A stretch of DNA of 64,000 nucleotides from Chromohalobacter marismortui. GTDB lineage: Bacteria > Pseudomonadota > Gammaproteobacteria > Pseudomonadales > Halomonadaceae. The stretch is taken from assembly GCF_004364315.1 (NCBI RefSeq), contig NZ_SOBR01000004.1:186001-250000 (forward strand). Reading direction: 5' to 3'. The notes under the pieces are model-generated. The model was not told the origin of the DNA and did not search any database. It saw only the letters and a program-made list of their open reading frames with translations. This document shows positions 25,545-60,747 of the stretch, piece after piece (positions within the stretch are counted from its first letter, which is position 1; each line of letters begins with the position of its first letter). Made by a program: the position numbers and the translations under genes.

Positions 25545-25606
25545 ACGGGCGCACGCATGTGCCATCAGCCAGTCACGACGACGCCACGCGAACCGCCGTT
25601 GAAGCC

Positions 25607-25708
25607 TGGCGTCAGTGCACCACGTTGCGGATGAAGCGCAGCCGACCCGCGCCCTCGTTGCGGTAACGGTGGAACTGATCGCTGGGATAGACGTGAAAGT
25701 CACCGGCC
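25607..25708. repeat. Left 102-bp direct repeat of the XRE-cupin gene end
   Basis: Matches 32594-32695 over 102 bp with three differences. It covers the last 31 codons and stop of the XRE-cupin gene plus 5 bp beyond. All three differences fall at synonymous third positions (Gly, Tyr and Arg codons). The two copies bound the 25.7-32.6 kb island. Confidence 0.92.
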
Positions 25709-25755
25709 CACTCACCAGCCGCATACAGCTCGACACCTTGATTCTTCGCCTGCAT
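25612..25755 (-). pseudogene. Orphan 3' fragment of an XRE-cupin regulator gene
   Basis: 47-codon frame whose last 31 codons (from AGDFHVYPSDQFHRYRN to the stop) equal the C-terminus of the cupin protein at 32599-33171. The first 16 codons (MQAKNQGVELYAAGEW) do not match it. AAGGAAGG lies 7 bp before the ATG, so a chimeric peptide could be translated. It lacks the HTH and most of the cupin barrel and cannot be a regulator. Best read as the displaced gene end left by island insertion. Confidence 0.75.
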
Positions 25756-25916
25756 AGCGCCCTTCCTTAACACAAAATTTAACAAATTCTTATTAAATGT
25801 TTTCTCAATAATGCCGATAGGCAGGAATGAGCACGGCATACCGAGGCGCTTCTTCTACCAGACAATGCCATCGCTCTATTGATGACCACGCAGCACTCGC
25901 ATCCTAGAGGCAGATC

Positions 25917-26339
25917 ATGAAACCTAAATTTCTAACACTCCATACAATACTTCTCGCCACACTCCCCTTGGTATCAGGAGCGGCCCATGCCGGATCAACC
26001 GTTACAATCAAAAATCATTCTCAGCATGTCATGGAAAAAACGTCAGGTCCTTGGGGGCTTCCTAATACGATTCAACCAGGAGACACAATCACATACGAAA
26101 TCACACATGGCGTCGTCATCGTCGATGACGAGTTCAAAGCAACCTATGAACGAAGGGATGGCCAAGGAGGATGTGAGTTCACTTCGAGAGTCTATACGGT
26201 AGAGTCTGGCTCGTATTATGTACCTGCCTACGAAAGCAGTGCCGACGACTCCGGAAATGGTGTTTATTGCAGGGATTACCTGAGTAATGAACGCTGGTCC
26301 AAACCTTACGGATATGAAGTCGAATTCAGTATTTACTAG
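25917..26339 (+). CDS. Secreted 140-aa beta-rich protein, unknown
   Basis: A signal peptide (1-25, cleavage after AHA) precedes a mature domain of about 115 residues with two Cys (GGCEFTS and GVYCRDY), possibly a disulfide. The mature start STVTIKNHSQHVM and the PGDTITYEI segment suggest an immunoglobulin-like or aegerolysin-like beta sandwich, but this is a guess from pattern only. RBS is AGAGGCAGATC before ATG 25917. AT-rich, unlike its neighbours. First gene of the island; it may be a secreted effector or toxin. Confidence 0.75.
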   Translation: MKPKFLTLHTILLATLPLVSGAAHAGSTVTIKNHSQHVMEKTSGPWGLPNTIQPGDTITYEITHGVVIVDDEFKATYERRDGQGGCEFTSRVYTVESGSYYVPAYESSADDSGNGVYCRDYLSNERWSKPYGYEVEFSIY

Positions 26340-26399
26340 GCATAAAACCCACTACCTAAGAATAGCATTCTAGAGAAGAACACCCATTGGGAGAAAAAA

Positions 26400-27431
26400 A
26401 TGCAAACGTCGAGCTACGCTGACCTTATCTCAGACGCCACCAACCATTACAACCAAAAGTTGCTAGGCAAGGGCAAATTAACACATAATTCTATAAACAA
26501 TGGCGCCTACTATGGACTTAACGCCGGTGACTCCCCCCTACTGGAAGGTAGCTCAAGCTCAACGCAAGGCAGTACTCAAAGCACATCTGTAAAGTTATCA
26601 CCAACTGCCATGAAGCTCTCTGAAATTCTGCTTAAAGATAGCAACACATCCGGTGCTTCCGCCGGTTTCGATAGCTTCTTGAGCAGAATGAGAGAACAGC
26701 TTGACACTATGGGAGGCAAAGCCGATGTACTCCAGGTAAGGCCGAATAGCTTAGACGCAGGCCGACTTTCTATTTCAGAGCAGGCCACAAATTTCTTGCT
26801 TTCCAAATATTACAATACTGAAAGCGCATATCCACAGGCATCTTCCGAAAACCCCTTTGCCGGTTTGGATAGGCACTCCCTGTCAAAGATCGCATTTGAC
26901 GATTCTGGCGACTTCGCTCCCGCAGAGCGTTATCTAGCTTTTCTTGAAATGGGAGAGAAGGATATCGACTTTATAAACAGGAATTTTGATCTAGCAAATG
27001 AGATGGAAAAAACTCAGGGAAAGGGCGCTAATTGGTCCCACCTAATAGGGACCCGAGCCGAGGAAAAACTGATTTCTTCGATGACCGAGGCTGAAAAAAA
27101 CTGGCGCGGTGTTTCGTCTACTCCAGATACAGACGCACCACCCTCTGAACCTGATGCAAAACGACAAGATACCGGCACCTCTCCCATGACGACCGACATT
27201 CCTTCCCTACCCGCATATCAAAACGGCTTGGGAAATAGTGAAACGAGCTTCTTCGCTATTACAGAAAATGCTCAGGGCGAACACACGCTAGCCAGCGTTA
27301 ACATCCAGGAGCTCATGCAAAACTCCCGCCATCTCAACCTATTGGACTCAACACTAAAAAGCCTTATGAATGACCAGCCTAATGAAGTAAACGATGGTTG
27401 GGTGCCTTATCAAAACCTTTTAGAAAAATAG
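26400..27431 (+). CDS. Unknown 343-aa Ser/Thr/Asn-rich protein
   Basis: No signal peptide or TM segment. The N-terminal 65 residues are low-complexity (Ser, Asn, Gly). A helical middle starts KLSPTAMKLSEILLKD. A distinctive segment, GLDRHSLSKIAFDDSGDF then PAERYLAFLEMGE, lies near 153-185, followed by a disordered Pro/Asp stretch (about 240-265) and a helical tail. RBS GGGAGAAA precedes the ATG. AT-rich codon use sets it apart from the chromosome. I do not recognise the family. The layout recalls proteins exported without cleavable signals. Confidence 0.75.
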   Translation: MQTSSYADLISDATNHYNQKLLGKGKLTHNSINNGAYYGLNAGDSPLLEGSSSSTQGSTQSTSVKLSPTAMKLSEILLKDSNTSGASAGFDSFLSRMREQLDTMGGKADVLQVRPNSLDAGRLSISEQATNFLLSKYYNTESAYPQASSENPFAGLDRHSLSKIAFDDSGDFAPAERYLAFLEMGEKDIDFINRNFDLANEMEKTQGKGANWSHLIGTRAEEKLISSMTEAEKNWRGVSSTPDTDAPPSEPDAKRQDTGTSPMTTDIPSLPAYQNGLGNSETSFFAITENAQGEHTLASVNIQELMQNSRHLNLLDSTLKSLMNDQPNEVNDGWVPYQNLLEK

Positions 27432-27500
27432 GCAACCAGTAATTAAATCACTTCACCGCTCGACAAAGCATATAAAACATCAGCTTAGGAGAAGCCTGAC

Positions 27501-27674
27501 ATGATCATCAACAAAACACTACCAACGACCACTTCCTTCACTCGGGGAAACGCTCCATTCCTCCTAAAATACCGAGAATACATATTTCCCACTGAATTGC
27601 GCAAGCAGTGTGGAAGCTGTCAGGGAGTTGGCTCAAACCGCCAGCCTCAGCACCACTGTGGTGCTATCCAGTAA
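27501..27674 (+). CDS. Possible 57-aa Cys-containing peptide
   Basis: Frame starting MIINKTLPTTTSFTRG with TTAGGAGAAGC upstream of ATG 27501. The C-terminal part has three Cys (QCGSCQGVG and HHC). The 3' half overlaps a second plus-strand frame with more host-like codon use, so this may instead be the first half of a frameshifted gene. If intact, it is a small peptide encoded just ahead of an exporter. Confidence 0.35.
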   Translation: MIINKTLPTTTSFTRGNAPFLLKYREYIFPTELRKQCGSCQGVGSNRQPQHHCGAIQ

Positions 27675-27828
27675 AAATAAAAATAGGGGTGCGAAGCAAC
27701 GAGCCAACCTGCTACGGACGCGTACGAGGCAAGGAGATTCACCTCCGGGCTTCCCGTCGACCGACCTACAGGTCAAGCGCACGGAGGCCGTGCGTGATGT
27801 CACCGACAACACGCAAGACGTGAAATAA
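27610..27828 (+). pseudogene. Second-frame coding remnant upstream of the exporter
   Basis: Open frame (stop-free from 27568) reading VEAVRELAQTASLSTTVVLS and ending VRDVTDNTQDVK. It has G/C-biased third positions in its latter half but no convincing ribosome site, and only a GTG near its start. It lies in the +1 frame relative to the 27501 frame. One explanation is a single gene of about 110 codons from 27501 broken by a frameshift near 27595-27610. No family recognised. Confidence 0.35.
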
Positions 27829-27853
27829 ACGCAACGAAACATAGTCACCAAGC

Positions 27854-28558
27854 ATGAAGCCACTAATTGCCATGGAAGGTGTTTGCAAATCCTATGCCTC
27901 CGCAGGGTGGGATCTCGACGTCTTCGATGAAGCCGCTTTGTCGATACAACACGGAGAGCGTTGCGCCATCGTTGGTCCGTCCGGTGCCGGTAAAAGCACG
28001 CTCCTTCACCTGCTTGGCCTACTCGATACGCCCGACAAGGGGCGTTTACTGTTTAACGGTTGCGATATTTCAACCACGACAAGCGACCAACGTGCGCAAC
28101 TGCGCAATCAATGCCTCGGTTTCATCTTCCAGAACTTTCATTTGTTGCCACGTCTGACTGCGCTAGAGAACGTGGCGTTGCCCTTGTTCTATCGAGGCCT
28201 TTCACGCGCTGCGGCGCATCAGCGTGCATATGAACAACTCGAACGCGTCGGCCTCGACGAACGCATGCTTCACCGCCCCGCCAGCCTCTCGGGAGGCCAG
28301 TGCCAACGCGTCGCCATCGCGCGAGCGCTGGTCGGCGCACCGGCCCTGATCCTAGCCGACGAACCCACCGGCAACCTGGATAGCGCCACCACCGAAGATG
28401 TCTTGCATCTTCTCTTGCAATTGAATCGCGAGGAAGGCGTCACGCTGGTTGTCGTGACTCACGATACCGGACTGGCCCAGCGCCTGGACCGCTGCTTTCA
28501 CGTGCAGAACGGCAAGGTCACGGAGAAACCACACCACTGGGACATGGCCCATGGATAA
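27854..28558 (+). CDS. ABC exporter ATPase, MacB/LolD-type
   Basis: 234-residue ATPase with Walker A GPSGAGKST (near 42-50), signature SLSGGQCQR, and Walker B ALILADEPTGNLDSAT, the last typical of the MacB/LolD/FtsE branch. It drives a mechanotransmission-type exporter with the next gene. It overlaps the permease start by 8 bp. The RBS is poor (CACCAAGC). First gene of the island's four-gene plus-strand operon. No peptidase (C39) domain is present. Confidence 0.92.
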   Translation: MKPLIAMEGVCKSYASAGWDLDVFDEAALSIQHGERCAIVGPSGAGKSTLLHLLGLLDTPDKGRLLFNGCDISTTTSDQRAQLRNQCLGFIFQNFHLLPRLTALENVALPLFYRGLSRAAAHQRAYEQLERVGLDERMLHRPASLSGGQCQRVAIARALVGAPALILADEPTGNLDSATTEDVLHLLLQLNREEGVTLVVVTHDTGLAQRLDRCFHVQNGKVTEKPHHWDMAHG

Positions 28559-29738
28559 AGACCGGCAAAGCGCAACCCTGCATTGGGTCTGGCGGGATGC
28601 GCTCGATAGCCTGCGATTGCTCGGTCGCCGCGCCTGGTTGGCGTTACTGGGAATCGCCGTTGGCTGCGCGGCGATCATCGCCTTGATCAACATAGGCCAC
28701 AATGCTGCCGTTGAATCGATCAATGCGTTCAAGGGGCTGGGCACCAACACGCTAGTGGCCTCCTTCAGGCCAGGCCCCGAGAATCTCGCGACCGCCCCCA
28801 TGACGCTGAATGGCCCGGCTCTGACGGCCACCCTGCCCGAAATCCAACATGCCGCCCCACTCACATTGTATTCGTCCCATCCACACCACGCGGGGACTTC
28901 CATGGATGCCGCCATCGTCGGCACCTCGCCGGAGTTACTCCCGATACTGGAATTGCAGGTGACGCAGGGGAGGTTTCTTTCGGATTTCGATCGTGAGTCC
29001 ACCTATGCCGTCGTAGGGTCGCGCGTTGCCCAGGATTTGGGGTTGATGCCGGGAAACTGGCTGCAAATAGCAGGTTATCTGTTCGAAGTGATCGGCATTA
29101 TCGCCAGCCAACCGAGAAACCCGCTGTTGCCAGTAACACCGGATGACTCAGTCTTTGTTCCGATAGAAGGGATGCGCCGCCTGCTTTCCGCCCCCCAAAT
29201 CGGGAATATCGTGGCTCGCGTACACGATAGCGCGCCACTGGCACGAGTCGCCGACGACATGACAACGTACCTGGAACGGACATTCGAAAACCGTGAGGTC
29301 GATGTGCAGATTCCCAAGCTGTTAATAGAGGGCATCGCCCACCAGGCCAGTACCTTCACTTACCTGCTGGCGGGCATGGGAGGGATTTCCTTGCTGGTGG
29401 GCGGTGTAGGCGTGATGAATGTCATGTTCATGAATGTGATCGAGCGCCGCCGCGAAATCGGTGTGCGATTGGCACTCGGCGCCAGAGCCCGCGATATCCG
29501 CAACCTTTTCCTGTTCGAGGCAATCGTGCTTTCCGTCACCGGCGCGCTCCTGGGAGCCGCACTTGGGCTGGGGGCGGCCTATGCATTCGTACGTTTTTCC
29601 GGCTGGGCGTTTAATCTCTCTGTGCTCTCGCTCCCTCTCGGCATCCTCTGTTCCTTGGGCGTAGGCCTCTTCTTTGGCCTATACCCCGCCTTGACCGCCT
29701 CTCGCCTGCCTCCAGTAAGTGCATTACGCGATGATTAG
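28551..29738 (+). CDS. MacB-like ABC permease
   Basis: 395 residues with the MacB_PCD/FtsX layout. TM1 is at about 28-50 (AWLALLGIAVGCAAIIALINI). A periplasmic domain of about 220 residues follows, then TM2-TM4. The conserved GGVGVMNVMFMNVIERRREIGVRLALGA is split between the TM2 end and the cytoplasmic loop (residues about 283-311). Unlike true MacB it is not fused to the ATPase. Coupled by overlap to both flanking genes. Substrate unknown: peptide, lipopeptide or small protein. Confidence 0.92.
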   Translation: MDKDRQSATLHWVWRDALDSLRLLGRRAWLALLGIAVGCAAIIALINIGHNAAVESINAFKGLGTNTLVASFRPGPENLATAPMTLNGPALTATLPEIQHAAPLTLYSSHPHHAGTSMDAAIVGTSPELLPILELQVTQGRFLSDFDRESTYAVVGSRVAQDLGLMPGNWLQIAGYLFEVIGIIASQPRNPLLPVTPDDSVFVPIEGMRRLLSAPQIGNIVARVHDSAPLARVADDMTTYLERTFENREVDVQIPKLLIEGIAHQASTFTYLLAGMGGISLLVGGVGVMNVMFMNVIERRREIGVRLALGARARDIRNLFLFEAIVLSVTGALLGAALGLGAAYAFVRFSGWAFNLSVLSLPLGILCSLGVGLFFGLYPALTASRLPPVSALRDD

Positions 29739-31215
29739 TCTGTTGCCCAACACGGTCGGCGTTCTTCAGAGGGTGTGCCTACTACTGGTAATCACGGCAT
29801 CCGCACAGGCAGCGACGTTAAAGCCTTCCCATCCTTCCATGCCAAGCCAAAGTGTGTCATTGAGCGAATATGTCGTCGACTTGACCTTAAGTGATGCCAT
29901 CTACCTCGGCTTGCGCAACAATCGCAACATTCGCAGCGCTTACCTCGGACGCATCGCCCAGAAGTTCGATTTGCAAGTTACCGAAGACAGCTACAATCCC
30001 AAGCTGGTACTCAGCGCCCGCTATCTTAACGCGCGCAATCAGGACGACCGCTATCAGGAAGGCGAAGTCTTCCCCCAGACGATCTGGACAACGGAATACG
30101 GTACCCGTATCAGCTTGGCATGGACCAATCAGATGACACTCGCCGATCAGGCTGGTCGCAGCCGCAGCGACGGCATCGACTTGAGCATGACCCAACCCCT
30201 GCTTCGCGGGATGGGACGCGATATTGCCACAGCACCGTTGAAACTGGCGCACCTCAGTGAACGGATCAACCGGTTGAATTTGCAGGCTACCGTTGCGGAT
30301 ACCATTACCCAAATCATCACGACGTACCGAGAAATGCTGCGGGCAAAAGAACAGCTACGGATTGCCCGTGAAGCCTTGAAGCGTTCACGCCGCCTGCTGC
30401 AAGTGAATCAAGCGCTGATCGAAGCCGGACGGATGGCCGAATTCGAGATCGTACAAACCGAAGCCGACATCGCCAGTCAGGAACTCAGTGTCGAGGAAGC
30501 TGCCAATCAGCTCGATGACAGTCAGCTAAGCCTGTTGCAGTTGCTATCACTGGATCTTGATACTCCTATCCGGACACCTGACGATCTCGATGCCAGCCTG
30601 ACCCATATCGACCTGGCCCGGGCACTCGCCATTGCCCGCACACACCAGCCTGCCTATCTGATCCAGCAGCTTGCCAGCGAACGCGCCGATATCAACCTGG
30701 CCGTCGCGCAGAACGAATCGTTGTGGGACGTCTCGTTGATTGGAGGGCTGTCACAGGTTCGCAATCGCTATGCTTCATCCAGCCAGCGTACCTGGTCGAG
30801 CTATGTGGGTGTTCAGGTCGATATTCCCGTGGGCGATCCCGGGCAGCGCCAGGCTGAAGTCAATGCCCATGTCGAGATTGAGCAGCAAAAACTCCGTATG
30901 GACGACACCCGCCAATCGCTCAAGCGCAATGTCGCCAACGCCGTGCGCAATCTGGAGACACGTTGGCGCCAATATGAGATTGCCCAGCGTGGCCAGGAAT
31001 TATCACGCCGGGCATTGGAAATCGAACGGGAAAAGCTTCAAGCGGGGCGTTCCAGCAACTTCCAGGTATTGCGTTTCGAATCCGATCTGCGCAACGCCGA
31101 GAATGCCCAGTTGGATGCCATGCTCGCTTATCTAAATGCACAAACCGCTCTGGACCAAGTGCTGGGCACTACACTCGCCAGTTGGGATATCGAGCTCAAT
31201 GATCGGACACCTTAG
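29731..31215 (+). CDS. TolC-family outer-membrane factor
   Basis: 494 residues with a signal peptide (cleavage after AQA). The paired-repeat alpha-barrel pattern shows long helices at about 160-260 (ITTYREMLRAKEQLRIAREA) and 375-460 (RNLETRWRQYEIAQRGQELS). The first repeat holds LSDAIYLGLRNNRNIRSAYL. The ATG at 29731 overlaps the permease stop (ATGATTAG); a GTG 12 bp upstream is possible. A dedicated outer-membrane channel inside the operon makes the exporter self-contained. Confidence 0.92.
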   Translation: MISLLPNTVGVLQRVCLLLVITASAQAATLKPSHPSMPSQSVSLSEYVVDLTLSDAIYLGLRNNRNIRSAYLGRIAQKFDLQVTEDSYNPKLVLSARYLNARNQDDRYQEGEVFPQTIWTTEYGTRISLAWTNQMTLADQAGRSRSDGIDLSMTQPLLRGMGRDIATAPLKLAHLSERINRLNLQATVADTITQIITTYREMLRAKEQLRIAREALKRSRRLLQVNQALIEAGRMAEFEIVQTEADIASQELSVEEAANQLDDSQLSLLQLLSLDLDTPIRTPDDLDASLTHIDLARALAIARTHQPAYLIQQLASERADINLAVAQNESLWDVSLIGGLSQVRNRYASSSQRTWSSYVGVQVDIPVGDPGQRQAEVNAHVEIEQQKLRMDDTRQSLKRNVANAVRNLETRWRQYEIAQRGQELSRRALEIEREKLQAGRSSNFQVLRFESDLRNAENAQLDAMLAYLNAQTALDQVLGTTLASWDIELNDRTP

Positions 31216-32470
31216 ACACCGCCGACCGGCTCGCCGCGCAATCATTGGCGCGCTGCTTCTTACCCTGCTGATTGGTGCCGGCTTCCTGTTTCTTGACCGG
31301 CCTCGTTCCACCGCACGCCCCCTCGCCACAACCTGGGTACCGGTACAACCGGCGCTCTTGGAGAATCAGCTTGGCCTCATCGGGCGCATCGAGGCGGACA
31401 CCCGGATCACCCTGGCAGCACCGTTCGATGGGCGTATCGAGCAAATCGCCGTCTCCGAGAATCAGCGTGTCGACAAAGGGCAGTTGTTAGCCACCCTGGA
31501 TACCACGCAACTGGACATTCGCATCCGTGAAGCGCGTGCCGAGCTACTCAAGGCCAGTCGCACACTAGGCGACATGCACAATTGGCTACAGAGTAACGAG
31601 GTGATTCGAGCCCGCCGCGCCGTCTCCACTGTCGAAGACAACCTTCAGGATATCCAAACCAAATTGGCGGAAACCCGGCGTTTGTATGAGCGCGGAATCG
31701 TCGCGCGAATGGAGGTCGATGCTCTGGAACAGCAACTCAAGTCACAACGGCGCGAACTAGCCACCTCTCGGGATGAATTGCGCACCACACAACGTCAAGG
31801 GCAAGGCGACAATCTGCGAATCGCGGAAATGGAAGAGGCCAATGCTCGCACCCACTATGACACCTTGCTGGCCCTGCGCTCCCAACGTGAGCGGCGCGCA
31901 CCTTTCGACGGGATCGTTTTGCACCCCAGCGCCAACGCTGGCAAGGGGGGACAACTCCCAATCCAGGCCGGTCAGTTCGTGTCCCAAGGCACCCCGCTGT
32001 TCGAACTCGCCAGCACTACGCGTCTCCATGCCTACGCCCGGGTCGAAGAAAGTGACTTGGATCAGCTCAGCGTGGACATGCCGGTCCAAATCACTGGTAA
32101 TGGTTTCAAAGGCATGACGCTTCAAGGTCATATCCAGAGCCTGGGTGTTCAAGCCCTTGATTCAGACTCCTATGGCGGCGGAAGTACCTATGAAGTAACC
32201 GTTGCCATCGACCCACTGCCCCCAGAACAGCACGAACATTTACGGCTGGGCATGAGCGCAAGGCTCGCTATCACGACCTACCACCAGGAAAATGGTTTGG
32301 CGGTCCCCGCTGAAGCCTTGCACAAAGATGATCAGGGAAGAGACTCCATTATCTACCGCCCAGCCCTGGATACAAGCCCACGACAGGTACCCGTCACGGT
32401 CGGCCGCGCCGTTCCCCAAGGCGTCGAGGTGTTCGGGTTGAAGCCAGGATACGTCGAGCTTCCCCCGTAA
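31199..32470 (+). CDS. HlyD/MacA-family periplasmic adaptor
   Basis: 423-residue membrane fusion protein. A short basic N-terminus precedes one TM (about 15-32). A lipoyl half (APFDGRIEQIAVSENQRVDKGQ) is followed by a coiled-coil hairpin of about 130 residues (100-235), the second lipoyl half (RAPFDGIVLHPSANAG), and beta-barrel plus membrane-proximal domains. The start at 31199 overlaps the TolC-like gene by 17 bp. It is encoded last, whereas macA usually precedes macB. The product ends GLKPGYVELPP 123 bp before the right-hand repeat. Confidence 0.92.
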   Translation: MIGHLRHRRPARRAIIGALLLTLLIGAGFLFLDRPRSTARPLATTWVPVQPALLENQLGLIGRIEADTRITLAAPFDGRIEQIAVSENQRVDKGQLLATLDTTQLDIRIREARAELLKASRTLGDMHNWLQSNEVIRARRAVSTVEDNLQDIQTKLAETRRLYERGIVARMEVDALEQQLKSQRRELATSRDELRTTQRQGQGDNLRIAEMEEANARTHYDTLLALRSQRERRAPFDGIVLHPSANAGKGGQLPIQAGQFVSQGTPLFELASTTRLHAYARVEESDLDQLSVDMPVQITGNGFKGMTLQGHIQSLGVQALDSDSYGGGSTYEVTVAIDPLPPEQHEHLRLGMSARLAITTYHQENGLAVPAEALHKDDQGRDSIIYRPALDTSPRQVPVTVGRAVPQGVEVFGLKPGYVELPP

Positions 32471-32593
32471 CGTGGATTCGCGCACAACGCAGGGCGCGCG
32501 CTGGGGCGATAGCGATTCTGCCGCAGCCTTATACCACGTGACAGAACTGGGCGTTCTCGCCTGCATATCGCCACGTAGATCACCATTGGCACT

Positions 32594-32695
32594 TGGCGTC
32601 AGTGCACCACGTTGCGGATGAAACGCAGCCGACCCGCGCCCTCGTTGCGGTAACGGTGGAACTGATCGCTGGGGTAGACGTGAAAGTCGCCGGCC
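32594..32695. repeat. Right 102-bp direct repeat, inside the intact XRE-cupin gene
   Basis: Partner of 25607-25708. Here the repeat is the functional C-terminal end of the intact regulator gene. Confidence 0.92.
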
Positions 32696-33171
32696 TCGAT
32701 CTTCACCTCGCGGTCCGCGAGCTCCAGGGTCAGCGTGCCCTCGATCACCACCAGCATCTCGTGCCAGCCGGTGCCGTCGGCGACGGACTCGTAACTCTCC
32801 CCAGGCTCCATCGACCAGGACCACAGCTCGACCTCCTGTCGCGCCGGCTTGCTCGCCAGCAGCCGGGCGTGACTGTCGGGGAAACGCCCCACCCAGGCGA
32901 CTTCGTCGATGCGCGCCGAGTCCTCACTGCCCGGGGGCTGAACCAGGGCGTAGAACAGCACCCCCAGCGCCTCGGCGAGTCGATCCAGCGTGCTCAGGCT
33001 GACATTGACGTCGCCCTTTTCGATATTGACCAGCATCCGCCGACTCACGCCGGCCCGCTCGGCCAACGCCTGCTGGCTCAGCGACGCCCCCTGACGCAGA
33101 CGCCGTACGTTGGCGGCGACGTGCACCAGGACATCGGGACGCTCGCTAGACTTGTGCACTATATTGCCCAT
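32599..33171 (-). CDS. XRE-family regulator with C-terminal cupin
   Basis: 190 residues. An HTH_3/XRE domain at about 18-75 (RRLRQGASLSQQALAERAGVSRR) is followed by a small-molecule-binding cupin at about 115-185 (WHEMLVVIEGTLTLELAD, then GDFHVYPSDQFHRY). It would act as a ligand-responsive repressor or activator. Divergent from rhtA with an 89-bp shared promoter, so regulation of the exporter gene is likely by context. Its last 31 codons and stop are duplicated 7 kb to the left, and it may have received a new 3' end from the island. Confidence 0.93.
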   Translation of the reverse strand: MGNIVHKSSERPDVLVHVAANVRRLRQGASLSQQALAERAGVSRRMLVNIEKGDVNVSLSTLDRLAEALGVLFYALVQPPGSEDSARIDEVAWVGRFPDSHARLLASKPARQEVELWSWSMEPGESYESVADGTGWHEMLVVIEGTLTLELADREVKIEAGDFHVYPSDQFHRYRNEGAGRLRFIRNVVH

Positions 33172-33260
33172 CCGTACAATCGCAATTCTCTTGAATACCG
33201 CGTGCGGCCAGCCACTGGCGCTGTCAGACGAGCAGCATGCCGCAGAACAAAGGAGGTGTC

Positions 33261-34154
33261 ATGTCAGTCGCCATGCGCGAATTCGTGGCCAGGGTTTGGC
33301 CGGTGGCCATGCTGATCGTGGCGATGTGCTCCATCCAGACCGGGGCATCCATCGCCAAGACCTTGTTTCCGGTCATCGGCGCCACCGGCACGACCTCGAT
33401 TCGCCTGATTCTCGCCGCGCTGATACTGCTGGTCGTGATGCGGCCCTGGCGCCAGCGGTTCAGCCGCCGCGCCTGGAAGTCGACCGTGATCTATGGCGTC
33501 GCCTTGGGCGTCATGAACATGCTGTTCTACCAGGCGCTGCAGACGGTACCGCTGGGGATCGCGGTGGCGCTGGAGTTCACCGGACCGCTAACGGTGGCGA
33601 TGCTCTCCTCGCGACGCTGGCTGGATCTGCTGTGGGTGGCATTCGCCGTGCTCGGCCTGGCGTGCCTGCTGCTGCTGGGCGATGAGAGCAACGGCGCGGT
33701 CGACCCTTACGGCGCGGCCTGTGCGTTGGGCGCCGGGGTCTGCTGGGCGCTGTATATCCTGTTCGGGCAAAAGGCGGGCTCGGTCAATGGCGCCCAGAGC
33801 GCCACACTGGGCATCACCATCGCAGCGGTGGTGATCGCGCCCGTCGGCCTGATCGACGTCGGCCCGGCGATTTTCGCGCCGGAGGTCCTCCCGCTGGCAC
33901 TCGCCGTCGCCGTGCTTTCCACCGCCCTGCCCTACACGCTCGAAATGGTGGCACTGCCGCGCCTGCCGACCCAGACCTTCGGCACGCTGATGAGTCTGGA
34001 ACCGGCGATCGGCGCGCTCTCCGGCCTGCTGTTCCTGAGCCAGCTCCTGAGTGGCCTGCAGTGGCTGGCCATCGGCCTGATCATCGTCGCCTCGATCGGT
34101 ACCACGCTGACGGTGCGCCGGCGCGATACCTTCGAGACGCCAGTACCGGACTGA
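33261..34154 (+). CDS. rhtA: Threonine/homoserine exporter RhtA-like (EamA)
   Basis: 297-residue, 10-TM DMT-superfamily carrier with two EamA repeats. RhtA-type sequences are recognisable: IQTGASIAKTLFP, TVPLGIAVALEFTGPL and LPTQTFGTLMSLEPA. It would export threonine, homoserine or related amino acids. RBS AAAGGAGGTGTC precedes ATG 33261. The divergent XRE-cupin gene is the probable local regulator. Confidence 0.9.
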   Translation: MSVAMREFVARVWPVAMLIVAMCSIQTGASIAKTLFPVIGATGTTSIRLILAALILLVVMRPWRQRFSRRAWKSTVIYGVALGVMNMLFYQALQTVPLGIAVALEFTGPLTVAMLSSRRWLDLLWVAFAVLGLACLLLLGDESNGAVDPYGAACALGAGVCWALYILFGQKAGSVNGAQSATLGITIAAVVIAPVGLIDVGPAIFAPEVLPLALAVAVLSTALPYTLEMVALPRLPTQTFGTLMSLEPAIGALSGLLFLSQLLSGLQWLAIGLIIVASIGTTLTVRRRDTFETPVPD

Positions 34155-58149: not shown

Positions 58150-58266
58150 AATATCTCGAAATGCAGACGACTGATAGCCCTCTTCTATCCGACGGATACC
58201 GGCGATTCGTGTAGAGGCTCGATCCTGTCCAGCGTGCCCTCGCCCTAGGCTCATTCTCCCGACCGC

Positions 58267-58337
58267 ACGGCCGAGGCATGGCGCCTTTATTCCCTCTCAC
58301 TCATCGTAATCGATGACGAAGGCGGACCAGGCTTGGC
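58267..58337. repeat. Left 71-bp direct repeat of the SDR gene end
   Basis: Matches 59923-59993 over 71 bp with five differences. It covers the last 12 sense codons and stop of the SDR gene plus 30 bp beyond. Weaker similarity seems to continue leftward (a shared CTAGGCT). Confidence 0.88.
58297..58337 (-). pseudogene. Orphan 3' end of an SDR gene
   Basis: Encodes QAWSAFVIDYDE and stop; the intact SDR ends [12 protein letters not shown]. One residue differs (V for A). The upstream part of the gene is missing. In the same frame, non-SDR codons continue rightward to a GTG near 58441, so a short chimeric peptide is conceivable. Confidence 0.75.
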
Positions 58338-58732
58338 TCGCTTCGTCGGCTCCTTGAAAAGGTTCGTAGACGTGCCCGAACCACAGCACGCCGAATGCTG
58401 ATACCCACCAAAGCGGTGGCAAAGGCCCGTTTTTCACAGTAGGTTACAATAACGACTCGACGCGATACGTAGCAGCAATGGCTACAGGGGATCGTCATCA
58501 AGCCCCGGGCTCCGCTGGAGCCAGCTGCGGAAGGGAAGAACTCGGCGATGCTCCAAACTTAAGAACCATGAGGAAATATCGCAATCGCAGCCTGGCAGTC
58601 GGCGTTCGAGGATAATCGAGAAGCGGCAAACCGCTGGTCAAATAGTGAGGCCATGGAGCTTTGTCATCATTAAAAACGCAGCATCATGTGCATTGGTTTA
58701 CCGGCCAGTTCGGCGAACATAGCCGGGAATCG

Positions 58733-59857
58733 ATGTATCGCAAGTCCATCAAGACGAGAGTGCGGTTTGAATCCTGCCTTTCATTGGTCTTGGTGTCCTT
58801 GATCTTTGGGATGTTTGCTATTACTGACTACCACCTTCTCGGTTTGAGCAGGGAATATTATCTACTGGTCACCATGCGCATCGTGGTGGTGAGCCTCTGT
58901 CTTTTCCTGGCGTTCATTATCGGACGCTGGGGCTGCTATTCCCGTAAAGCCTGGCTGCACGCTCTACCGCTCTGGATACTTGCGACAGGCATCATTTTAA
59001 TCGTTCCCTTGCGCCCCGAAAGCCTCTTCACTCAGGTAACAGCCGTGGTGGTAGCCACCATGGCGTTCTACCTCCTGATCCCCAATCTACTGATAGTGGC
59101 GATGTTCGCGAGCCTCTATTTGAGCATGGGCTTTCTAGTTTCTGCGGTGCTGTTCGCGGAGATTGCACCGGTGGTGACACTTCGCATAGCGCTGCTATTG
59201 ATCATGACGAATGTCGTGGGCTTCTGTGCCTTGCTGCGCCTGGAGATCCTGCAGCGCAAGCAATTTGCGCTGCTTCAAGAAGAGCGTGATCAAAATCGCC
59301 TTCTGCTCAAGGAAATAGCGCATCGAAAATCATTGGAAGCACAGTTGCGCATGGTCGCCGAGCGAGATGCCCTGACGGGACTCGATAGTCGCAGCCACTT
59401 CATGAAGCGGGCCAAGGCGCTATTACAGCGCTCGCGATTGGAAAAAGTGCCGTTCAGTCTTTTCATGATCGATGTGGATCATTTCAAGAGCATCAACGAT
59501 ACCTGGGGGCACACTCATGGAGATTGGGTTCTGACCAAGATCGCGGAGGTTTGTGCGCAATCTCTCCGCCCCACTGATGTAATAGGGCGTTTCGGAGGTG
59601 AAGAGTTCGTGGTAGCCCTGCCAGACACCAGTCCCAAGGACGCTCAAATCGTGGCGGAACGCTTGAAGAAGGAGGTCGCCACGCTTCCGTTAAAGGAAGG
59701 AATGAGCGGGCTGTGCCTGAGCGTCACCATCGGTATCGCTTTAGCGCACCCTGAAGAGGGCGACCTCGAGTCCTTGATCACGCGAGCGGATCAGACGCTA
59801 TACGTTGGCAAGCGCAATGGCAGGAACCGGGTAGAGATGAGTCGCGATTCATGCTGA
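58733..59857 (+). CDS. Membrane diguanylate cyclase (GGDEF)
   Basis: 374 residues. Six or seven N-terminal helices (about 15-170), in a MASE-like bundle, lead through a coiled coil (about 175-210) into a GGDEF domain. The active-site GGEEF is at 288-292. The product-inhibition site RxxD (RPTD) is at 279-282, the correct spacing. It makes c-di-GMP, probably with membrane-sensed input. ATG 58733 (MYRKSIKTRVR) is preferred; a TTG at 58661 would add 24 residues. It is the only gene in the 1.6-kb repeat-flanked segment. Confidence 0.9.
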   Translation: MYRKSIKTRVRFESCLSLVLVSLIFGMFAITDYHLLGLSREYYLLVTMRIVVVSLCLFLAFIIGRWGCYSRKAWLHALPLWILATGIILIVPLRPESLFTQVTAVVVATMAFYLLIPNLLIVAMFASLYLSMGFLVSAVLFAEIAPVVTLRIALLLIMTNVVGFCALLRLEILQRKQFALLQEERDQNRLLLKEIAHRKSLEAQLRMVAERDALTGLDSRSHFMKRAKALLQRSRLEKVPFSLFMIDVDHFKSINDTWGHTHGDWVLTKIAEVCAQSLRPTDVIGRFGGEEFVVALPDTSPKDAQIVAERLKKEVATLPLKEGMSGLCLSVTIGIALAHPEEGDLESLITRADQTLYVGKRNGRNRVEMSRDSC

Positions 59858-59922
59858 TAGGTAGCGGTCATCAAGAGGTTGAAGGCCTGCTCTAGGCTGA
59901 CATCCCTCTCCATCCCGCTCTC

Positions 59923-60747
<825 letters not shown>

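Follow-up and report, generated by a model that had tools for sequence, protein, structure and literature searches.

An exporter island between duplicated ends of a cupin gene in Chromohalobacter marismortui and its probable integration without an integrase

Introduction

Islands that tyrosine integrases insert at gene 3′ ends reconstitute the end of the gene and leave a duplicate of it at the other border. The same arrangement is found in Chromohalobacter marismortui (Halomonadaceae; assembly GCF_004364315.1, contig NZ_SOBR01000004.1), where a 6.9-kb block of low GC content relative to its flanks lies behind an XRE-cupin regulator gene. The block was studied in a stretch of 64,000 nt (positions 186,001–250,000 of the contig, forward strand), here called the window, and positions are counted from its first letter unless a contig is named. 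The block differs from tyrosine-integrase islands in two respects: no integrase is encoded among the island proteins, and the genes that anchor similar scars are unrelated in sequence. In our view the island was probably added without an integrase, by additive integration at the cupin 3′ end, which served as anchor, and carries a type VII (MacB-type) exporter as its cargo. No report of 3′-tail scars at ordinary genes in this group was found in the literature, which is weak evidence of absence.

A described counterpart is insertion-duplication in Escherichia coli. In conjugation experiments, 56 of 60 clones gave a PCR product of a partial target-gene duplication, and 14 of these products were sequenced (109–950 bp) (PMC3240628). 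The authors explain the duplications by one crossover with a circle that had been shortened, and the remaining four clones are attributed to homology-facilitated illegitimate recombination (HFIR) with deletions. As described in that report, insertion-duplication resembles the present case in the partial duplication of the target gene around the insert (42–131 nt here), the retention of the resident flanks and the lack of an integrase. It differs in that a laboratory construct was integrated at lacZ, whereas here natural scars lie at several genes and the anchor gene is intact. Tandem duplications that arise through unequal exchange during transformation have been described in pneumococcus (PMC3784515).

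The type VI secretion system (T6SS) arrays of Vibrio cholerae are also similar, in that a module is placed beside a conserved anchor, the old part is pushed outward and the additions are sequential (PMC5361080). Those arrays lie within toxin clusters, where entire immunity genes are often what has been displaced. In the present case the anchors are ordinary regulator, SDR and nrdB genes, and the displaced tails are short scars.

The cargo is comparable with MacAB-TolC and with the type VII ABC exporters, including the darobactin exporter DarBCD. They have in common a MacB-type permease, an adaptor of the HlyD/MacA type, TolC and a LolD-like ATPase. In the island, unlike in these systems, the ATPase and the permease are separate chains, TolC is encoded in the operon, and the exporter is paired with orphan protein families that, among the genomes searched, occur only in Halomonadaceae.

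Repeats at the Borders of the Island

Self-BLAST of the window showed a direct repeat of 102 nt (25607–25708 versus 32594–32695; 97% identity, E = 1.6e-42). The repeat is the 3′ end of the XRE-cupin gene (32599–33171, minus strand), and resident gene sequence is directly repeated at both borders of the foreign DNA. Read from the sequence, the copies differ at three codon positions (TTT/TTC, TAT/TAC and GGT/GGC), all of them synonymous. An earlier note on this DNA, made from the letters alone, had described the pair in the same terms. Beyond the cupin stop the homology continues more weakly for about 25 nt, giving 127 nt in total at 90% identity. The identity drops sharply past the stop codon, and 10 of the 13 differences lie within the outer 25 of the 127 nt.

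The left border carries the start of another gene, an ATG with about 15 further codons, which is cut and continues in frame into the cupin tail near 25708. An AAGGA-type ribosome site precedes its ATG (25755–25753, minus strand) at the left edge of the block. An attempt to name this gene failed: in a comparison of 25709–25916 with 274 other genomes of the family, only short matches (20–54 nt, E 5e-4 to 9e-3) were obtained, in 12 genomes. The features of the borders are as follows.

25582–25606, no strand: less conserved outer section of the repeat, beyond the stop of the cupin gene (25 nt with 10 differences from 32569–32593)
25607–25708, minus strand: displaced copy (L) of the cupin 3′ end (97% identical to 32594–32695; one copy in the empty sites of five congeners)
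25709–25755, minus strand: cut start of a donor gene that reads in frame into copy L (read from the sequence)
32569–32695, minus strand: right copy (R), the downstream part and 3′ end of the intact cupin gene (repeat search and sequence)
32599–33171, minus strand: intact XRE-cupin regulator gene, the anchor (HTH_3 and Cupin_2; orthologues of 88–98% identity in six of nine congeners)
33237–34154, plus strand: EamA transporter, a conserved neighbour of cupin (adjoins it in 20 of 20 loci from other genera)

Composition and Gene Content

The block is horizontally acquired, foreign DNA. The GC content is 46% in the p140 and p343 genes and 58% in the ABC operon, compared with 66% in both flanks. The GC content at third codon positions follows the same order, with 43–47 for p140 and p343, 64–69 for the operon and 83–87 for the four flanking genes. 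The inventory of the earlier note (a secreted protein, a 343-aa protein, a zone of degenerate small ORFs and an ATPase-permease-TolC-HlyD operon) agrees with the ORFs and the Pfam matches:

25917–26339, plus strand: p140, an orphan protein of 140 aa with two cysteines and, by eye, a Sec-type signal (ORF)
26400–27431, plus strand: p343, an acidic, cysteine-free orphan protein of 343 aa (ORF)
27432–27853, no strand: ORF-poor stretch, GC 50.5% (sequence)
27854–28558, plus strand: LolD/MacB-type ABC ATPase (Pfam ABC_tran 9e-34; NCBIfam LolD 1.7e-78, below the cut-off of the model)
28551–29738, plus strand: MacB/FtsX-type permease (MacB_PCD 3e-27, FtsX 1e-17; PDB 5gko MacB 4e-40)
29719–31215, plus strand: TolC-family outer-membrane protein (OEP 5e-44)
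31136–32470, plus strand: HlyD/MacA-type periplasmic adaptor (HlyD_3 7e-21)

The ORF-poor stretch, searched in six frames against the ORFs of the relatives' loci, gave no match at E 0.01. Pfam showed no integrase or transposase family among the six island proteins, as the earlier note had said of integrases; recombinases were not surveyed genome-wide.

Empty Sites in Congeners

The window genome (G000) was compared with nine congeners. The cupin gene is present (at least 88% identity) in 7 of these 10 genomes. Five of the six congeners that bear it (G001, G003, G004, G005 and G009) have an empty site, in which the flanks are joined through a single copy of the repeat. The sixth, G002, has different cargo at the same site, and in the three congeners without the cupin gene, DUF427 adjoins EamA. 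The check for empty sites and other cargo proposed in the earlier note thus came out in favour of an acquired island, as did the composition. The empty sites have a 24-nt spacer after the cupin stop that is absent from both window copies; apart from this spacer, the resident flanks are intact on both sides of the window insertion.

The two window copies agree with the congener consensus at 95 and 96 of 102 positions. Both are therefore of the genus type, and the donor of the island was probably a close relative, as judged from these alleles. The earlier note had also proposed that the intact gene received a replacement 3′ end and that its old end was displaced. In the window the two copies are equally near to the congeners; the proposal draws support from the alleles of G002, at few positions.

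Another explanation is that an old island has disappeared from the congeners, and that the repeat is a duplication made within the genome. The congeners do vary downstream of the cupin gene, and three of the nine lack it. We nevertheless consider this explanation highly improbable in view of the foreign composition (GC 46–58% versus 66%), the absence of p343 from all nine congeners and the five precise empty sites. The three differences between L and R also speak against it, since, all being synonymous, they indicate that L was probably under selection until recently.

Parallel Insertion in G002

The cargo of G002 at the cupin site is 3.3 kb long, and a cupin-tail remnant of 45–48 nt lies at its left edge. 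Its genes, named by eye, are NAD(P)H-oxidoreductase-like, GNAT, MocR-like and AhpD-like. Similar DNA is what normally follows the cupin gene in genus g3: among the 20 loci from other genera, six match the cargo at 84–89% over nearly its whole length, and a further two match parts of it. The left ends of the window and G002 cargoes differ.

At its 3′ end, the intact cupin gene of G002 has 42 nt that are 98% identical to g3_G123, 95% to the window and 88–90% to the five congeners with empty sites. The next 60 nt do not discriminate, and the sequence beyond them is congener-like. The left remnant is the congener allele. These alleles suggest that in G002 a replacement 3′ end most likely arrived with the cargo and that the native end was displaced.

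Displaced Tails at Other Genes

A second displaced tail is present in the window, at an SDR gene:

58257–58340, minus strand: displaced 3′ end of the SDR gene (84 nt, 89% identical to 59913–59996)
58661–59857, plus strand: GGDEF protein, the cargo at the second site (Pfam GGDEF 1.7e-43; missing from the G003 site)
59953–60714, minus strand: intact SDR gene, the anchor of the second site (Pfam adh_short 5e-49)

This second repeat had been considered as a toxin/immunity array. That idea was rejected, the repeat being the end of the SDR gene with the GGDEF gene as cargo. Seven congener loci were compared at this site, leaving out G004 (75% paralogue) and G008 (75% paralogue and a 129-aa partial match). 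SDR-tail remnants occur in five of the seven (G001, G002, G006, G007 and G009) and in neither G003 nor G005. The cargo of the congeners at this site includes LysE, GGDEF and an ArsP-like permease.

Three further genes of G000 have displaced tails. The YaiI/DUF188 gene has a 100-nt tail, with 217 nt and no cargo gene between the copies; all nine congeners have an empty site there, with an exact 100-nt overlap. The CNNM gene has a 58-nt tail, and the 650 nt between its copies contain no convincing gene. The IclR gene has a 42-nt tail with 9.6 kb of cargo between the copies. G002 bears an IclR-tail remnant of its own, and in G006 the flanks are 24 nt apart, which is empty-like. The stretch between the IclR gene and its displaced tail (G000 C4:314325-324793) varies among the congeners, and the locus is a variable one with remnants.

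The nrdB gene of G005 (C1:176614-181746) has two successive displaced tails, of 131 and 66 nt. A dGTPase-type defence gene lies between the two tails, and between the second tail and nrdB are three more genes, a small one and two that encode a caspase domain and ThsB-TIR. This locus is possibly an integrase-free defence hotspot.

Where repeat copies differ, the differences crowd on the outer side. At the SDR repeat, 7 of 9 differences lie within the outer 38 of 84 nt, and at the YaiI repeat all 6 lie within the outer 29 of 100 nt; the cupin repeat behaves likewise. Similar scars at other genes and in other species suggest that the duplication reflects a process and is not peculiar to this exporter.

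Genome Scan and Control

Displaced tails were scanned with one script in all samples. A pair was counted as a tail when the repeat lay at or within 16 nt of the stop of the gene. Genes were called by codon-usage scoring. The samples were partial, so the rates are an indication only. Displaced 3′ tails were found at five genes in 1.11 Mb of G000, three of them with cargo genes between the copies; G005 had one such gene in 0.40 Mb, and E. coli K-12 had none in a sample of the same size. Four of the G000 genes came from the script and the cupin gene from a separate repeat scan, the paralogue filter of the script having removed the cupin pair owing to a fused 75-aa ORF. The other 13 pairs removed by the filter (7 in G000, 2 in G005 and 4 in E. 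coli) were full-length paralogues or within-gene repeats.

Some kept pairs were not counted. In G000 these were two in a transposon-like region (C1 619–621 kb), eight within the tandem repeats at C4 181–184 kb and a single pair distant from genes (C4 352/355 kb). In G005 they were three away from genes, one on the 5′ side and one formed by the two nrdB remnants with one another. The E. coli sample kept five pairs, none touching a gene of at least 100 aa and three among tRNA-Asn genes; it held no 5′-side or internal pairs.

Two repeat features were recorded beside the scan. Just left of the window (G000 C4:181844-184715) lie about 2.9 kb of degenerate internal tandem repeats, offset by multiples of about 60 nt, with about 70% identity between copies. 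A dispersed repeat of about 120–145 nt (C4:324806-324950) recurs at numerous positions across all ten genomes of the genus, and an Rfam search of it gave nothing near gathering scores.

Exporter and Orphan Protein Families

The Pfam, NCBIfam and PDB profiles recovered every part of a tripartite exporter: a permease with FtsX/MacB and periplasmic core domains, its cognate ATPase, an HlyD adaptor and TolC. From these matches the four proteins can be confidently predicted to form a MacB-type exporter. p140 and p343 had no family match in Pfam, NCBIfam, PHROG or PADLOC, and PDB profile searches for the orphan proteins gave nothing better than E 0.6. AlphaFold2 models of p343 (mean pLDDT 42, 23 sequences) and p140 (mean pLDDT 46, 8 sequences) were not used for fold searches.

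Of 200 other genomes of the family, 12 have relatives of p343 (ten strong and two marginal); named carriers belong to Halomonas, Billgrantia, Halovibrio and Vreelandella. Relatives of p140 were found in 8 of the 200, every one of which also has p343. A plasmid search for p343 gave no match. Profile A3, run on 369 genomes of the class, found its own genome only; 3 of the 21 entries listed are of the same family, so the sample carries little information on the family. Among the genomes searched, that is, in this class search and at the 12 loci, the p140 and p343 families were found in Halomonadaceae only.

The exporter lies beside p343 at 3 of the 11 other loci, one of the three being cut by a contig end. 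Two of the 11 loci are contigs of less than 4 kb and six show no exporter in the sequence available, one of the six having a 54-codon ATPase fragment. In the three other genomes with the linkage, the four-gene operon shows 40–58% protein identity to that of the island. A 260-aa family goes with p343, and a secreted family of 148 aa goes with p140; a separate 307-aa family accompanies a secreted-type family of 144–176 aa. In Halomonadaceae of other genera (L070, L071, L072, L074, L075 and L078), orphan arrays of proteins of about 330, 260 and 307 aa were seen, with small Sec-type proteins between them and several copies truncated or split.

Cysteines are distributed unevenly in these families. 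Cysteine is lacking in 22 of 24 distinct p343-family members of at least 200 aa and in 7 of 8 such members of the 307-aa family. Exactly two cysteines occur in all 7 distinct p140-family members of at least 130 aa and in 4 of 5 such members of the other small family. Large proteins nearly free of cysteine and small ones with two fit exported proteins, of which the small ones would have one disulfide.

After Sec export, p140, a protein of the disulfide type, would be picked up by the exporter in the periplasm and leave the cell through TolC. No signal peptide is visible in p343, which may be a co-inherited partner or a second substrate. Most likely, the cargo is a type VII (MacB-type) exporter of p140, and export of both proteins is likely on the evidence of their sequences. 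The suggestion of the earlier note, a compact secretion module, is supported by the exporter linkage and the cysteine pattern, and we infer the export itself; antagonism, which the note named as the other function, is at most a hypothesis.

The operon might instead be an ordinary efflux or lipoprotein-type pump, with the p140 and p343 genes as unrelated passengers. Exporters related to MacB handle both antibiotics and virulence factors (PMC5985334), the two orphan genes and the operon differ in composition, and p343 lacks an exporter at 6 of the 9 loci long enough to judge. This explanation has some standing, and we hold it to be the less probable one, as the operon lies beside p343 in three other genomes and paralogous families are stacked around the operon there.

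Route of Integration

We propose that one end of the donor fragment lay in about 100–130 nt of the cupin 3′ end and the other inside an unrelated gene (25709–25755). A crossover in the short homologous piece would give an intact cupin gene whose end is partly of donor origin, and would leave the other cupin 3′ end stranded on the far side of the cargo. We infer this topology; the likeliest route would be a single crossover of a trimmed, circularised fragment (insertion-duplication), of which a duplication with retained resident flanks is the outcome. As the anchor piece holds the true end of the gene, the gene survives, and such events would be tolerated at 3′ ends and repeatable. Selection may thus favour 3′ ends, since with the end of the gene inside the anchor one complete copy keeps its own promoter.

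HFIR of a linear fragment would be a close alternative route, with a homologous crossover on the cupin side and an illegitimate join inside the resident cupin 3′ end. It would yield a cut donor gene at the left junction, and it is the mechanism suggested for displaced genes of the T6SS clusters in V. cholerae (PMC5361080) and for dimorphic or variable loci of E. coli (PMC2884548). HFIR products, however, generally delete resident DNA, duplications being ascribed to the single crossover of a circle (PMC3240628), and at the window insertion only the 24-nt spacer of the flanks is missing. We therefore treat HFIR as a possible route and not as the favoured one.

A recombinase encoded elsewhere might also integrate a circle site-specifically at the cupin 3′ end, as happens at the 3′ ends of tRNA and other genes. 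The duplicated 3′ end and the reconstituted gene resemble attL/attR, and the same site was used in the window and in G002. This is improbable to us, for the island proteins include no integrase, the two cupin cargoes have different left ends, and the anchors (cupin, SDR, YaiI, CNNM, IclR and nrdB) are unrelated genes whose repeats range from 42 to 131 nt. For these reasons a homologous anchor is more economical than a site-specific enzyme.

Integrase-free integration of an exporter island, which we consider probable, has to be weighed against several observations. In the laboratory, E. coli integrates DNA in this way at very low frequency, and HFIR was judged an unlikely explanation of the E. 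coli variable loci by the authors of the conjugation study (PMC3240628). The island donor is absent from the genomes searched, the closest p343 having 56% identity, and beyond the stop R, not L, is slightly closer to the congeners, which does not fit a simple picture of L as the native copy. The tail evidence in G002 consists of 42 nt, with 1 versus 4–5 mismatches; G123, the nearest tail, has a beta-lactamase-like gene after its cupin gene and not the cargo of G002, which may itself be ancestral and lost in the congeners. The LysE-GGDEF cargo is common to G001, G007 and G009, and the SDR remnants of these three may be one old event. Two of the five G000 scars (YaiI and CNNM) have no convincing gene between the copies, and the congener comparison spans the cupin, SDR, YaiI and IclR genes. 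The E. coli control is one genome, with 0.40 Mb. Partial duplications on the 5′ side or inside genes also occur, two in G000 (C1 282 and 621 kb) and one in G005, and 6 tails versus 3 others is no significant 3′ bias. On the side of the cargo, p343 often lies without an adjacent exporter, in the proportion given above, and the export of p140 and p343 is deduced from sequence.

Conclusions

The 3′ ends of genes in this genus may be reusable docking sites, at which stacked tail scars mark integrase-free hotspots that resemble an integron without an integrase. This wider reading is offered tentatively and is doubtful at present, because two scars have no cargo genes and 6 versus 3 is no significant bias. 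If it is true, secretion modules, metabolic genes and anti-phage defence genes would accumulate behind the same genes. The nrdB stack of G005 suggests that defence genes can arrive by such additions.

Displaced tails leave a record that can be read from sequence. The anchor and the direction of additions can be told from them, in some cases the order as well, and comparison of their alleles may indicate the genus of the donor, as in G002. Should the pattern hold, integrase-free islands could be called from one genome, and the route, single crossover or illegitimate join, would be testable. The exporter and its cysteine-patterned orphan families are a candidate for a new protein-secretion module in Halomonadaceae.

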